From IMG/VR virus record IMGVR_UViG_3300038424_000171, positions 1-58,345 of that record: a stretch of DNA of 58,345 nucleotides; one strand, 5' to 3'. The stretch is from a virus. The stretch's first letter is position 1. Every line of letters starts with the position of its first letter. The translations under genes and the position numbers were made by a program. Shown piece by piece: positions 1 through 58,345 of the stretch. Below the pieces are notes generated by a model. That model was given only the letters and a program-made list of their open reading frames with translations. It was not told the origin of the DNA and ran no database searches.

Positions 1-127
1 CCGCCGTTAGTAGCGGCACGACGGGGACGCTATCGACCACACACGATGCAATCTTGGCGGTTGCAGGGTTTGTAGCTTCGGCGCTTAGCTCAGGGCCCAC
101 CGGTGGGTTTACCGAGTTGTCCAACCC
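1..127. repeat. Terminal direct repeat, left copy
   Basis: Bases 1-127 are identical to 58219-58345. An exact 127-base overlap equals a common largest assembler k-mer, so this most likely marks a circular contig (a circularly permuted or circular genome) rather than a biological terminal repeat. The gene interrupted by the contig ends is in frame across the join, which supports closure at about 58,218 bp. Confidence 0.95.
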
Positions 128-19629: not shown

Positions 19630-19671
19630 ATGAGACCCTACTACGACGAAGGCGGGGATAAAATATGCTGA
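19630..19671 (+). pseudogene. 5' stump resembling the adjacent methyltransferase gene
   Basis: A 13-codon reading MRPYYDEGGDKIC lies just upstream of the HNH gene. The intact methyltransferase gene after the HNH begins MKPYYEDTTSGITIYHGDC. The two starts agree at the codon level in M-x-P-Y-Y-(D/E). This fits an HNH gene placed inside or beside the start of a methyltransferase gene, leaving the old start behind. Confidence 0.45.
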
Positions 19672-20090
19672 CTAATCGCGGATGGTTTAAGCCTGGACAC
19701 TCGCAGCCTAAATCCGAGGCGCACAGGAAGGCCATTGGAGAGGGGCAACGCCGCGCGTGGAGCACAAAAAGGCAACGGCTTCCGATTGGTTCAACTTGGA
19801 TCGACAACGATGGCTATGTTCGGGTCAAGACGAGCGAGCCTTGCGATTACTGGCGACCGGAGCACCTGATTGTAGCAGAAAAGAAACTCGGTCGCAGTCT
19901 CCTGCCTGGCGAGATTGTTCACCATATCAACGTAATCCCGAACGATAATCTGCCCGACAATTTGCACGTCTTCCCGAGCATATTGGAGCACAACGCTGCC
20001 CACCGGTCATTTCTTGATTTGGTCAAAGGACTGCTCGATGACCGGATTATTCGATTCAACACCAAAACAGGGAAATACGAGCGTTGCTGA
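19665..20090 (+). CDS. HNH homing-type endonuclease
   Basis: A 141-residue free-standing HNH_3-type nuclease: IGSTWIDNDGYVRVK, then EHLIVAEKKLGRSL, EIVHHINVIPNDNLPDNL and EHNAAH, the usual order of this family. It also has a short N-terminal basic region that could contact DNA. Its stop overlaps the methyltransferase ATG by one base (TGATG). Confidence 0.86.
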   Translation: MLTNRGWFKPGHSQPKSEAHRKAIGEGQRRAWSTKRQRLPIGSTWIDNDGYVRVKTSEPCDYWRPEHLIVAEKKLGRSLLPGEIVHHINVIPNDNLPDNLHVFPSILEHNAAHRSFLDLVKGLLDDRIIRFNTKTGKYERC

Positions 20091-20794
20091 TGAAGCCTTA
20101 TTACGAAGACACTACAAGCGGCATCACGATTTACCACGGCGACTGCCGCGAGATTCTGTGGATGTTCAAGGCCGACCTCGTGCTGACCGACCCGCCCTAT
20201 GGTTCAGATACTTGCGTTGATAATGCTCGATTCTCAGGCGGAGCACTCTGGAATCGTCAGGTAATGCGATCTGCAGTGCAGGAACGCCGGAAAGTTGAGG
20301 GTGACTGTAAGCCGTTTGATCCAACGCCGCTTCTTGAATTTAAGCGACTCGCGCTCTTTGGAGCCAATTGGTATGCCTCGCGACTTCCTGATTCTGGTGG
20401 CTGGATCGTTTGGGATAAGCGAGGTAACGGACTCGAGGATATGAAGGGCTGGCCGATGGGCGAGTGTGAATTGATCTGGACGAATCTCGCTGATGCTGTG
20501 CACGTCTTTCGGAATCGCTGGATGGGCTTGGTGCGGGATTCCGAGCATGGCGAACATTACCATCCTACACAGAAGCCAGTCGCGCTGATGCGATGGCTTA
20601 TTGAGCGATTTACAAAGACAGGCGAGCGAATCCTTGATCCATATATGGGGAGCGGTTCGACCTTGGTAGCAGCCAAGAGCGTCGATCGTCGCGCCATCGG
20701 TATTGAGATCGAGGAGCGCTACTGCGAGATCGCGGCGAAGCGGTTGGCGCAGAGCGTGATGCAATTTGGGAGGCACTGTGACGAAACCGGTTAA
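20090..20794 (+). CDS. DNA amino-methyltransferase (N6-adenine or N4-cytosine)
   Basis: A 234-residue S-adenosylmethionine-dependent DNA methyltransferase. Catalytic motif IV LTDPPYGSD comes before the SAM-binding motif I ILDPYMGSGSTLVAAK, the motif order of the beta class. RRAIGIEIEERYCEIAAKRL closes the fold. It probably protects phage DNA from host restriction; no cognate endonuclease gene is next to it. Start at ATG 20090 is supported by the overlap with the HNH stop. Confidence 0.9.
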   Translation: MKPYYEDTTSGITIYHGDCREILWMFKADLVLTDPPYGSDTCVDNARFSGGALWNRQVMRSAVQERRKVEGDCKPFDPTPLLEFKRLALFGANWYASRLPDSGGWIVWDKRGNGLEDMKGWPMGECELIWTNLADAVHVFRNRWMGLVRDSEHGEHYHPTQKPVALMRWLIERFTKTGERILDPYMGSGSTLVAAKSVDRRAIGIEIEERYCEIAAKRLAQSVMQFGRHCDETG

Positions 20795-22696: not shown

Positions 22697-22858
22697 ATGA
22701 CTGCTGAAGAAATGGCTGCGCGACGCTGGGCTAAAGTACCGCCTGGCCCCGAGCGCACCAAACTAGCGCGCAAGGCCGCCCTGACTCGCTGGGCCGGCCA
22801 CGTCAAACAGGCCAAACCCAAGCCGCGCAAATCCAAGCCCTCAGATGTGCCGGCGTGA
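22697..22858 (+). CDS. Small basic protein, probably leaderless
   Basis: A 53-residue basic protein (EEMAARRWAKVPPGPERTKL, then ARKAALTRWAG and a Lys/Pro tail). It resembles 18699 in layout and in the lack of a ribosome site directly after a strong promoter. Its stop overlaps the GTG of the HNH gene as GTGA. Confidence 0.6.
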   Translation: MTAEEMAARRWAKVPPGPERTKLARKAALTRWAGHVKQAKPKPRKSKPSDVPA

Positions 22859-23385
22859 GACGGCCCGACATCGATGATAGCCAAGTCGTTGCTCTTTACA
22901 CCATCGAGCATCTAACGGTCAGGCAAATTGGCGCGCGTCTGGGAGTGAGTGGCACGGCCGTCTGGAAGCGCCTCAAACGCGCTGGTGTATCTGCTTATGC
23001 CGGCGAGCACGTCCAGGCCGTCTGTGTCCAGTGCGGCAACCCAATAGACCGGACTCGTGCACGCTTCCGAATCACTGAACGGTCATTCTGCTCAAAGCCT
23101 TGCTATTATCTCGCTCGTGAAAGCCCTAATCTGGTTATCTCGCGCTGGGGCGGTATACAGGCGCGTCAACTGGTGAATCAGCATTTCCCCTTACAGACTG
23201 GCTATATCGTTCACCATGAGGATCGAGACGAGTGCAATAACGCCCTCGGCAACCTCCGCGTATTTGCCTCCCAGTCCGACCACGGCCGCTATCATCATGG
23301 TAAATTTGTCATTCCTCTGTGGGATGGAAGGAATTGTCGATGTGAGGGTTGTTTAACCTTTCTTTCTGTGGCGCTGACCGAGTAA
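22855..23385 (+). CDS. HNH endonuclease with N-terminal helix-turn-helix
   Basis: A 176-residue protein starting at GTG 22855. Residues 1-45 form a helix-turn-helix (LTVRQIGARLGVSGTAVWKR). Residues about 55-85 are a Cys-rich zinc module (CVQCGNPIDRTR and CSKPCYY). Residues about 115-150 hold the HNH nuclease (GYIVHHEDRDECNNALGNLR). The HTH probably guides target recognition. It is an unusual three-part layout among the four HNH genes here. Confidence 0.82.
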   Translation: MRRPDIDDSQVVALYTIEHLTVRQIGARLGVSGTAVWKRLKRAGVSAYAGEHVQAVCVQCGNPIDRTRARFRITERSFCSKPCYYLARESPNLVISRWGGIQARQLVNQHFPLQTGYIVHHEDRDECNNALGNLRVFASQSDHGRYHHGKFVIPLWDGRNCRCEGCLTFLSVALTE

Positions 23386-24115: not shown

Positions 24116-24210
24116 ACTTTGAGCGAGAATTGCAAATCGCGGCCTTTCTTCACATCATCAAGAATCTGATTCAGGGCGCTAATCGGGTAGTAACAAAAGG
24201 GAATTATTGA
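24112..24210 (+). pseudogene. Small gene whose end lies in the cassette repeat
   Basis: ATG overlaps the previous stop as ATGA. The 32-residue product (FERELQIAAFLHIIKNLIQG and a short tail) ends KGNY-stop, with the GNY and stop codons supplied by the left inverted repeat of the methyltransferase cassette. The 26483 gene ends in the same KGNY at the second cassette. The original 3' end is probably lost or displaced. Confidence 0.5.
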
Positions 24211-24222
24211 TTTGAGTCCCTT
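24199..24222 (+). repeat. Cassette 1 left terminal inverted repeat
   Basis: Starts GGGAATTATTGATTTGAG and continues TCCCTT. Identical to the left repeat of cassette 2 over 26 bases (including a following GG), after which both cassettes share GACAA just before the first start codon. Confidence 0.85.
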
Positions 24223-24230
24223 GGGCGACA

Positions 24231-25274
24231 ATGTCTGCTTACTACAATGAAAATGAACCCTACGCGGCGCAGTGGCTCCGAAACCTCATCGCCGCGAAAC
24301 TCATCGCGGACGGAGATGTTGACGAACGAAGCATCGTCGATGTCAAGGCAGGCGACATTGCTGGATACACCCAATGTCATTTCTTCGCCGGAATCGGCGG
24401 ATGGTCCTATGCACTCCGGCTCGCCGGATGGCCCGACGAGCGCGCCGTCTGGACCGGCTCCTGTCCGTGCCCGCCCTTCAGCGCGGCGGGAAGGAAACGA
24501 TGCCCAAATTGCACTCATCGGGGTCTGGGATTCCTTGCAGGCGAGCATTCAGTCATCGAAGAGTTTGGCTGTCCATCGTGCGGATGGCGCGACGAGCGAA
24601 ATTTATGGCCTGAGTTCCGCAGGCTCATCGAAGGCGCACTCCCTGAGCGAATCTTTGGCGAGCAGGTTGCGAGCCCGCTTGGACGTGAATGGTTCGCCGG
24701 AATACGCGCTGATCTGGAAGCTCTGGGATATGCCTGCGCAGCCGTCGATTTGTGCGCTGCGAGCGTCGGCGCGCCCCATATCCGACAGCGGCTCTACTGG
24801 GTGGCCGACAGCGACAAGACAGGACGCGGGTGGAAGCCGCTCGCTGGGCTATGGCGGCCAGCGCTTTATGACGCTGACCGATGCGGCGCGAATGACGGGC
24901 TGGCCGAGTCCGAACACGCCGAGCGGCGGCCCGAACTCAAGGAAAACAGCCAGCCATCGGGGCGGCATGGATTTAGAGGGTGCGGCGAAGTTCGCGGGAT
25001 GGGCGACGCCTACTGGGCGGGATCACAAGGACGGCGAGAGCACCTTGGAGAACACGCCGATCAACTCTCTGCTTGGGCGGCTGGTCAGTCTCTCCGTTGC
25101 CTCGACGGAAAATCGCGGCGCATTGAACCCGGCGTTCAGCCGCTGGCTCATGGGGTTCCCGCCCGAGTGGGACGATTGCGCGGCTACGGCAACGCGATCG
25201 TCCCGCAAGTCGCGGCGGAATTTATCAAAGCCTGTAGGGAGTGCCGGCCATGCGTAAGGGACTCAAGTCAATAA
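24231..25274 (+). CDS. Cytosine-C5 DNA methyltransferase
   Basis: A 347-residue protein. Motif I is HFFAGIGGWSYAL (residues 50-62). The catalytic loop is SCPCPPFS with Cys80. A zinc-like CPNC and CPSC pair sits at about residues 91-117. Motif VIII is QRLYWVADS, and motif X is RGYGNAIVPQVAAEFI near the C-terminus. The classical ENV motif is replaced by a variant near GEQV. It transfers a methyl group to cytosine C5, probably shielding phage DNA from restriction. It is the cargo of an inverted-repeat cassette and is completely overlapped by another frame. Confidence 0.88.
   Translation: MSAYYNENEPYAAQWLRNLIAAKLIADGDVDERSIVDVKAGDIAGYTQCHFFAGIGGWSYALRLAGWPDERAVWTGSCPCPPFSAAGRKRCPNCTHRGLGFLAGEHSVIEEFGCPSCGWRDERNLWPEFRRLIEGALPERIFGEQVASPLGREWFAGIRADLEALGYACAAVDLCAASVGAPHIRQRLYWVADSDKTGRGWKPLAGLWRPALYDADRCGANDGLAESEHAERRPELKENSQPSGRHGFRGCGEVRGMGDAYWAGSQGRREHLGEHADQLSAWAAGQSLRCLDGKSRRIEPGVQPLAHGVPARVGRLRGYGNAIVPQVAAEFIKACRECRPCVRDSSQ
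24247..25257 (+). CDS. Overlapping alternate-frame protein within the methyltransferase gene
   Basis: A 336-codon open frame, +1 relative to the methyltransferase, starting 16 bases later and ending 17 bases earlier. The C-terminal 150 residues have real protein character: GWPTATRQDAGGSRSLGYGG, then a GWPSPNTPSGGPNSR block, GWATPTGRDHKDGES, and RWLMGFPPEWDDCA. These GW-P-T-P-type repeats belong to a phage/bacterial sequence family I recall, often annotated near methyltransferases. Its TAA lies at the inner edge of the right repeat, exactly as in cassette 2. Function unknown; the N-terminal third may be only incidental. Confidence 0.55.
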   Translation: MKMNPTRRSGSETSSPRNSSRTEMLTNEASSMSRQATLLDTPNVISSPESADGPMHSGSPDGPTSAPSGPAPVRARPSARREGNDAQIALIGVWDSLQASIQSSKSLAVHRADGATSEIYGLSSAGSSKAHSLSESLASRLRARLDVNGSPEYALIWKLWDMPAQPSICALRASARPISDSGSTGWPTATRQDAGGSRSLGYGGQRFMTLTDAARMTGWPSPNTPSGGPNSRKTASHRGGMDLEGAAKFAGWATPTGRDHKDGESTLENTPINSLLGRLVSLSVASTENRGALNPAFSRWLMGFPPEWDDCAATATRSSRKSRRNLSKPVGSAGHA

Positions 25275-25279
25275 TTCCC
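25256..25279 (-). repeat. Cassette 1 right terminal inverted repeat
   Basis: Inverted copy with one difference (C in place of T at position 13 of the repeat, read from the outer edge). The TAA stop of the 24247 frame (25255-25257) sits at its inner edge. Confidence 0.85.
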
Positions 25280-25317
25280 CATGTTTAACTGACTGAGCGT
25301 TCGTGGTATTAGGTTTC

Positions 25318-26113: not shown

Positions 26114-26486
26114 CGAAGCCCCGAATCTCGACCTCGGCGACGGCGTGGTGCTCGAAACCCCCGCGTCCGACCCGAACAAGATTTTTAACTCGAACGACCT
26201 GACTCCAAAACACAAGGGTTGGCCCAAGGGCAAGTCGCGCAAGCCGCAACCGCAGATCGCGCCGCGTCAACTGCTCAACAAGCCGCAGGAAGGGGAGAGC
26301 GTCGAGCACTCGCTCATCCGGCGCTTGCTGAATGCCGCGAAGGCGCGCACTCAACTCGCGACGATCATCCCCGACCAGTGCACCGGCTGCGTCAATCAGC
26401 ACAAGATGGGGATTCGGCGCATGCCGGTCTGCGATTGCGTCTGCCATCAGGCGCGGGCATGGCTCGCGGATCCGAAGAACAAATGA
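26106..26486 (+). CDS. Hypothetical protein with Cys cluster
   Basis: A 126-residue protein: a basic, Pro-rich region with the patch KGWPKGKSRKPQP, a helical centre, and a CTGCVNQH plus CDCVCH zinc-like cluster near the C-terminus. It overlaps the 25520 gene by 8 bases. The KGWPKGKSR patch is common in phage packaging-region proteins, but no function is known. Confidence 0.6.
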   Translation: MSDEAPNLDLGDGVVLETPASDPNKIFNSNDLTPKHKGWPKGKSRKPQPQIAPRQLLNKPQEGESVEHSLIRRLLNAAKARTQLATIIPDQCTGCVNQHKMGIRRMPVCDCVCHQARAWLADPKNK

Positions 26487-26590
26487 ACAACTCTTGGCCT
26501 AAATATCCTGGACAACACATTCCAACGACACCGAATGCTTGCAACGCTCGGGTGATTTTTGATTCAGAAGATTTGAAGGGGAATTATTGA
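26483..26590 (+). pseudogene. Small gene interrupted by cassette 2, 5' part
   Basis: ATG overlaps the previous stop as ATGA. The reading MNNSWPKYPGQHIPTTPNAC and following is native up to codon AAG at 26576-26578, then enters the inserted repeat and stops as KGNY. Removing 26579-27058 (element plus one target copy) joins this frame to 27059-27157, giving a 64-residue protein whose stop overlaps the terminase start by 8 bases. Confidence 0.75.
26571..26578. repeat. Target site duplication, left
   Basis: ATTTGAAG directly before the left inverted repeat of cassette 2; an identical copy follows the right repeat at 27051-27058. Confidence 0.85.
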
Positions 26591-26602
26591 TTTGAGTCCC
26601 TT
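26579..26602 (+). repeat. Cassette 2 left terminal inverted repeat
   Basis: Begins GGGAATTATTGATTTGAG and ends TCCCTT. The TGA within it (26588-26590) terminates the interrupted upstream gene. Confidence 0.88.
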
Positions 26603-26616
26603 GGAGGACAACTAAC

Positions 26617-27027
26617 ATGCCTGAAACGCCAAGGATGTTCTATTTCGGACCTTGGGATGAGGCTGGACACTACTTTTTTGATGAGCGCGGTAGTTACCAA
26701 AGCACAGACAGTATTCCGCGCTTTCCATTCGGTCACGAGGCCGGGAAGGTTTACGTTGATGGTGCGTTACAGCCCGGCTGCCCCGATTCTGGTGATCGAC
26801 TTTGCCGCCAAACGCGCCCGGAGATAGAAGGGGAAGCCGCGTTGCACCACATTCAGGGATGGACTGCGCTCTGTTTCTGGGATCGTTCCGTGGATGAACG
26901 AGGAGCCTGCAACAGCAATTACTTCGCGGAGGGAACCTTCACGTTCGATCAGATGGTTGAGATGGCAAAAACTCGTTTCGCGCATCGGTGGGACAAGATG
27001 AATTTCACGGTGCATCTTGCAGCTTAA
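26617..27027 (+). CDS. Cassette cargo: conserved phage protein of unknown function
   Basis: A 136-residue protein. It starts MPETPRMFYFGPWDEAGHYF and contains GWTALCFWDRSVDERGACNS and EGTFTFDQMVEMAKTRF, blocks I recognise from small uncharacterised phage proteins in unrelated tailed phages. GGAGGA precedes the ATG. It is the only gene of cassette 2, so it may spread among phages by this element. Function unknown. Confidence 0.8.
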   Translation: MPETPRMFYFGPWDEAGHYFFDERGSYQSTDSIPRFPFGHEAGKVYVDGALQPGCPDSGDRLCRQTRPEIEGEAALHHIQGWTALCFWDRSVDERGACNSNYFAEGTFTFDQMVEMAKTRFAHRWDKMNFTVHLAA

Positions 27028-27050
27028 AGGGACTCAAATCAATAATTCCC
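27027..27050 (-). repeat. Cassette 2 right terminal inverted repeat
   Basis: Exact inverted copy of the left repeat over 24 bases. Its inner base is the last base of the cargo gene stop codon. Confidence 0.88.
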
Positions 27051-27058
27051 ATTTGAAG
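27051..27058. repeat. Target site duplication, right
   Basis: ATTTGAAG, identical to 26571-26578, directly after the right inverted repeat. Confidence 0.85.
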
Positions 27059-27157
27059 CATCATGCCTATATTTTCTGCGACTTGAAGTTGCACCATTGG
27101 GGCAGGCACAAATGGCGGGGACCATTCTGCACGGTGACGTGGCGCGGCAATGTCTGA
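27059..27157 (+). pseudogene. Small gene interrupted by cassette 2, 3' part
   Basis: Downstream half of the gene begun at 26483. In frame after excision it reads HHAYIFCDLKLHHWGRHKWR and ends TWRGNV-stop (27155-27157), overlapping the terminase ATG by 8 bases as is usual here. Within the present sequence it has no start codon and is presumably silent. Confidence 0.7.
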
Positions 27158-57753: not shown

Positions 57754-58345
57754 AGAACTTAGCAGCAACAGCAGCAACTCTATTCATCGCCGTGCTGATG
57801 CTGTGCGTGGCAAGCGCCGATGCCCTAGCCGTGATTCAGTGCGTAAACTCGGGATCCACTTGCGGCACTACGAGTGTGACCTGCTCGTCTTTCAGCGGCG
57901 GCACAATCCAGCTTGGCGACGCTCTTTTCATAGGGACGGGCACGGTAACCTCAACAACGTCCAAACAGACCGTGAGCTCCATCAGCGAGGGTGGAGACAG
58001 CCCTACAGCTAACTATTGCTCTAAGAGCCAAGGCGCGGCAGCCGGTCAGAATGCTGCAATCGGGTACGTTCTCAACATCACCACCACCAGCCCGTCTGTC
58101 GTGGTCAATTTCACTGGCGGTCTAGTTATATGTACGCAGAATGTTTATGTAGTCGATCTCGGGCCGGCCGCCATAGATTCGAGCTCGGCCTGCGGGACAG
58201 CATCGGCTTCCAACACAACCGCCGTTAGTAGCGGCACGACGGGGACGCTATCGACCACACACGATGCAATCTTGGCGGTTGCAGGGTTTGTAGCTTCGGC
58301 GCTTAGCTCAGGGCCCACCGGTGGGTTTACCGAGTTGTCCAACCC
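57750..58345 (+). CDS. Exported Thr/Ala-repeat protein, N-terminal part (continues at base 1)
   Basis: The ATG overlaps the stop of the preceding gene as ATGA. The frame stays open to the contig end and, after removing the 127-base overlap, continues in the same frame from base 3 to the stop at 489-491, giving 319 residues in all. The N-terminus is a clear Sec signal peptide (Lys near the start, then a hydrophobic core ending ASADALA). The mature part is Ser/Thr/Cys-rich and predicted to be beta-rich, with no family I recognise. It is the last member of a run of exported proteins (52020, 55472, 56026, 57071, 57325, 57750). Its role could be tail fibre, surface decoration or host-envelope protein; sequence alone does not decide. 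Confidence 0.85.
   Translation, partial: MKNLAATAATLFIAVLMLCVASADALAVIQCVNSGSTCGTTSVTCSSFSGGTIQLGDALFIGTGTVTSTTSKQTVSSISEGGDSPTANYCSKSQGAAAGQNAAIGYVLNITTTSPSVVVNFTGGLVICTQNVYVVDLGPAAIDSSSACGTASASNTTAVSSGTTGTLSTTHDAILAVAGFVASALSSGPTGGFTELSN
58219..58345. repeat. Terminal direct repeat, right copy
   Basis: Second copy of the exact 127-base end overlap (see 1-127). It lies inside the coding sequence that begins at 57750. It should be counted once when the genome is circularised. Confidence 0.95.

Follow-up and report, generated by a model that had tools for sequence, protein, structure and literature searches.

Two probable IS1595-type mobile insertion cassettes in a phage genome and their relatives in uncultured phages

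The stretch of viral DNA analyzed here, referred to as the window, is 58,345 nucleotides long and starts with a direct terminal repeat of 127 bp (positions 1-127, plus strand) that is identical to its last 127 bases (58219-58345); because of this terminal redundancy, the genome is probably complete. Before the terminase gene lies element A (26579-27050), which is bounded by 24-bp terminal inverted repeats that are perfect over their full length, the left one (GGGAATTATTGATTTGAGTCCCTT) at 26579-26602 on the plus strand and the right one at 27027-27050 on the minus strand. The octamer ATTTGAAG, read directly from the sequence, is found on both sides (26571-26578 and 27051-27058, plus strand) as an AT-rich 8-bp target duplication that fits the motif NWWNNWWN. 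The repeats enclose a single open reading frame of 136 aa (26617-27027, plus strand), with a Shine-Dalgarno sequence, GGAGG, at 26603-26607. A search for the IS1595 transposase domain (PF12762) gave no match in the phage genome, and element A thus contains cargo without a transposase. The coordinates, repeats, duplication and single gene reported in a first-pass annotation of this DNA all hold on re-reading, as does the absence of a transposase. That annotation counted one cassette, while the genome actually contains two, the overlooked one being element B (24199-25279).

Element B has the same ends as element A with one mismatch. Its left terminal inverted repeat (24199-24222, plus strand) is identical to the repeat of element A, while the right one (25256-25279, minus strand) carries the mismatch. 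The cargo is a C5 cytosine DNA methyltransferase of 347 aa (24231-25274, plus strand; Pfam DNA_methylase, 2.4e-8; PHROG 363, 7e-69), the stop codon of which is located inside the right repeat. The left flank, TAACAAAA (24191-24198, plus strand), and the right flank, CATGTTTA (25280-25287, plus strand), both fit the target motif and differ from each other; since there is no matching 8-bp duplication, element B was classed as a cassette by its ends alone. A long overlapping frame of 336 aa inside the methyltransferase gene (24247-25257, plus strand), for which tblastn gave matches in 109 phage records, may represent true dual coding or the shadow of a conserved methyltransferase gene. Further upstream, an N6/N4 methyltransferase gene at 20084-20794 is not surrounded by family-type ends with a duplication, and the open reading frames at 19665-20090 and 22855-23385 resemble HNH homing endonucleases by eye.

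As the window is a metagenome assembly, a chance inverted repeat or an assembly artefact was considered as an explanation for element A. Against this, perfect 24-bp inverted copies less than 5 kb apart would arise by chance about 1e-6 times, or about 1.6e-11 times if the 8-bp duplication is included (both uniform-base estimates), and dinucleotide shuffles of the sequence produced no comparable inverted pair. A sister contig with 99.99% identity over 8450 bases shows the identical arrangement, and identical ends are present in other phages. The second contig and the existence of a family of such elements refute this explanation, the probability of which we regard as negligible.

Excision of element A together with one copy of the duplication (480 bp) opens a frame of 64 codons from the ATG at 26483 to the TGA at 27155-27157, which corresponds to a putative interrupted gene on the plus strand (26483-27157, in the two parts 26483-26578 and 27059-27157). 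Together with the target duplication, this restoration had been presented as strong evidence of transposition. The frame does open, but 53% of the sampled 32-codon stretches in the phage genome are also open, and frame restoration alone is therefore weak evidence. The gene joints, with ATGA at 26483-26486 and with ATG and TGA overlapping the start of the terminase, modestly favour a genuine small gene in this position. The sole relative of this gene that was found belongs to the near-identical phage, and a search for the empty site of element A, using the 64-aa gene and the terminase, recovered only the near-identical contig.

The protein encoded by element A had no match in Pfam or PHROG, nor in cultured phages and plasmids. 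Relatives with 45-60% identity are encoded on seven further viral contigs (L016-L022), where their neighbours mostly lack known functions. No matching ends were located around these genes, likewise when L016-L021 were scanned again. The predicted structure had a pLDDT of 81, and a fold search with this model against PDB and BFVD gave nothing at E <= 0.001.

We searched for the same ends elsewhere. Among viral contigs, L005 and the sister contig had the exact 22-bp end, whereas a slightly relaxed pattern identified one contig only in a genome collection, PMOH01000316.1 (C444). This contig was binned with a deltaproteobacterial metagenome-assembled genome (MAG), yet it has tail sheath, baseplate, terminase and head genes and is phage-like. 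Three cassettes of one gene each are located on it, flanked by perfect 8-bp duplications (TTTCGAAA, AAAGTAAG and CAAGAAAG); their cargo is an N6/N4 methyltransferase, Mom and a C5 methyltransferase. The repeat thus flanks further genes, as the transposition reading of element A had led one to look for. In a comparison of the sequences, the left end of element A was the end common to L005, C444 and element B, and single matches similar to the terminal inverted repeat were obtained at L007-L011 at the level of the end sequence. The L005 element encodes a protein that matches DDE_Tnp_IS1595 at 2e-43; its left end is exact over 22 bp, its right end has diverged, and no matching duplication was found at its flanks. 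A transposase with a matching end, which the first-pass annotation proposed to seek in host genomes, accordingly exists, but it was found in phages and not in a host genome. Among the elements found, none joins the exact ends of the window with both a transposase and a perfect duplication. The unmatched flanks of element B and the L005 element most likely result from recombination between cassettes.

The wider family was assembled from a transposase search, in which the best 80 of 254 viral loci were taken, and from two end-pattern scans. The first scan of these 80 loci gave 49 elements with an inverted pair and an exact 8-bp duplication, of which 47 have family-type ends. In total, 112 distinct elements were recovered, mostly from uncultured phages; 69 contain a transposase and 43 do not (65 and 27, respectively, in the first 92). 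A perfect 8-bp duplication is present in 109 of the 112, which is not an unbiased rate because no element with more than one mismatch in the duplication was admitted to the set. The consensus end is GGGAATTATATACTTGACTCCC, with which the window end GGGAATTATTGATTTGAGTCCC agrees, and the target site is AT-rich and symmetrical. The motif NWWNNWWN was found in 226 of 274 paired flanks (82%) and at 156 of 220 unpaired ends (71%), as compared to a background of 3.8%.

In the transposase, residues D143, D212, E248 and K255 are conserved, and the catalytic residues (D, D, E and K) hardly vary. Phylogenetic analysis placed 29 viral transposases and one from the phage-like MAG contig in a single well-supported clade, outside of which fall the bacterial and plasmid relatives, with at most 46% identity. 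Within this sample, in which the viral rows were picked by similarity or by ends and the bacterial rows represent one phylum, plus five plasmids, the clade of the matching transposase has so far been seen on viral contigs only. No transposase was found in 21 of the 23 viral records with transposase-free cassettes, most of which are fragments.

The cargo differed between the two kinds of elements. Methyltransferase or Mom genes were found in 15 of the first 27 transposase-free elements versus 4 of 65 elements with a transposase (Fisher 5e-7; family-match counts assigned to elements by reading the sequences). Among open reading frames near cassettes, about 4 of 90 matched methyltransferase families. 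The share was lower in 16 further transposase-free elements obtained with a different end pattern, which included two N6/N4 methyltransferases and two Dam proteins (Pfam). The distance from one cassette end to the start codon is mostly 13-46 bp, and that from the stop codon to the other end is mostly 5-29 bp, with some exceptions. A phage-type cargo gene, described at first as unusual, is common in this IS1595-type cassette family of phages.

Evidence of movement was obtained for members of the family. When the L193 cassette was removed along with one duplication copy, the joined flanks aligned without a gap to a methyltransferase gene in L035 that is uninterrupted, and excision of the transposase-bearing element in L101 likewise gave an ungapped join, in this case against window positions 24239-24473. 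The cassettes in L189 and L198 share 91% identity and occupy unrelated sites, each with its own duplication. Insertion sequence copies that are 99.7% identical occur at different sites in L162 and L214. That cassettes of this family move is shown by the empty-site homologs and by the occurrence of one cassette in two unrelated places. The empty sites called for by the first-pass annotation were consequently found for cassettes of the same family, but not for element A itself. The L193 cassette (2249-2959) is a C5 methyltransferase cassette that sits inside another C5 methyltransferase gene. In L272 (477-1956), two cassettes are arranged head to tail with exactly one copy of the octamer CTATATTG between them, and the same octamer is also found on both outer sides of the pair.

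Taken together, the anatomy, the duplications, an element with a matching transposase and the insertions at unrelated sites, along with the empty-site homologs of relatives, support an origin by transposition. The description of element A as a cassette inserted by transposition is likewise supported by the repeat around other genes, the matching transposase and the empty sites of the family. We consider it very probable that both element A and element B belong to the mobile insertion cassettes of the IS1595 family. A DDE transposase of the IS1595 type, provided by a co-infecting phage, a prophage or the host, would mobilize them in trans. Such an enzyme would act on the GGGAATTAT... ends and transfer the cassette into an AT-rich octamer, which would be duplicated as the 8-bp repeat. 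Element A would have entered ATTTGAAG, inside or near the small gene before the terminase. Element B would be a similar cassette that most likely lost its matching flanks by recombination with another cassette. The cargo would probably be read by transcription running through the phage operon, and modification genes would be retained for their protection against restriction.

Homologous recombination between short conserved boundary sequences could also shuffle segments among phages, without any transposition. It would account for the different cargo genes between the same ends, and for the unmatched flanks of element B and of the element in L005. Five cassettes, including those in L151, L189, L198 and L209, have a 41-bp end and leader in common but differ in their genes, as if cargo were exchanged between conserved ends. 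However, homologous recombination makes no duplications, whereas perfect 8-bp duplications of varied sequence surround 109 of the 112 selected elements; this largely refutes it. Insertions at unrelated sites, the empty-site joins and the 69 elements that contain a transposase between the same kind of ends also argue against recombination, which we consider most unlikely as the sole process.

Alternatively, the cassettes could be decayed insertion sequences that have lost the transposase gene, kept a passenger by chance and are now immobile. In favour of this, one transposase-free element, in L208, contains a transposase remnant, and the transposase gene is retained by 65 of the initial 92 elements. 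Yet most cassettes consist of one intact open reading frame that fills the element, with start and stop codons near the ends, and their cargo is strongly unlike that of the transposase-bearing elements. Moreover, the cassettes in L189 and L198 represent the same unit at unrelated sites. Decay is thus very unlikely, and we retain trans-mobilized IS1595-type cassettes as the explanation for elements A and B.

Mobile insertion cassettes consist of cargo between IS-type inverted repeats without a transposase (PMC3129680, citing De Palmenaer 2004). Element A resembles them in these respects, and element B does so by its ends, although the duplication is absent. Those that we found in the literature mostly relate to resistance genes of plasmids, for example qnrD and qnrS2. 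In contrast, the phage cassettes belong to the IS1595 family, reside in phages, usually contain one gene, are near-minimal and often have DNA-modification cargo. ISApl4, a member of the IS1595 family, generates an 8-bp AT-rich duplication (PMC12561309), and the phage elements share with insertion sequences of this family the order of the DDE transposase motifs, the GGG-type ends and the 8-bp AT-rich duplications. They differ from IS1595 relatives by their virus-only clade in our sample, by the low identity to bacterial and plasmid proteins noted above and by mostly having passenger open reading frames. Integron gene cassettes have been reported in phages (PMC9892861) and are similar in that single small cargo genes can move between genomes, but the inverted ends and 8-bp duplications indicate transposition rather than integrase recombination at attC.

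The broader proposal is that of a transposon-based system of phage gene cassettes, in which a virus-resident IS1595 clade has captured single phage genes, often for DNA modification, that would move in trans between phages, with a role for anti-restriction genes resembling that of integrons for resistance genes; we give this about even chances of being correct. A limited search of the open-access literature found no description of a virus-resident IS1595 clade with single-gene phage cargo. In one survey of phages, orphan DNA methyltransferases were the commonest known genes in variable islands, the exchange of which was ascribed to recombination (PMC7468147), and in another survey transposases were very rare in phages (PMC10879196). 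Because the transposase-free cassettes often carry methyltransferase or Mom genes, the likely benefit would be a swapped genome modification that evades restriction. The phage cassettes suggest a concrete and testable route by which protection against bacterial restriction could be exchanged.

Two further arrangements were observed in the family. The phage with the L198 cassette also has a transposase-bearing element (L254:997-3120) with the duplication CTCCAAAG, the ends of which diverge from those of the L198 cassette beyond the first dozen bases. Finally, a cassette with an 8-bp duplication in L300 (2001-3178) contains a TnpB-like open reading frame of 382 aa, and in the cassette set to which it belongs, the Pfam families OrfB_IS605 and Cas12f1-like_TNB had one matching member each.
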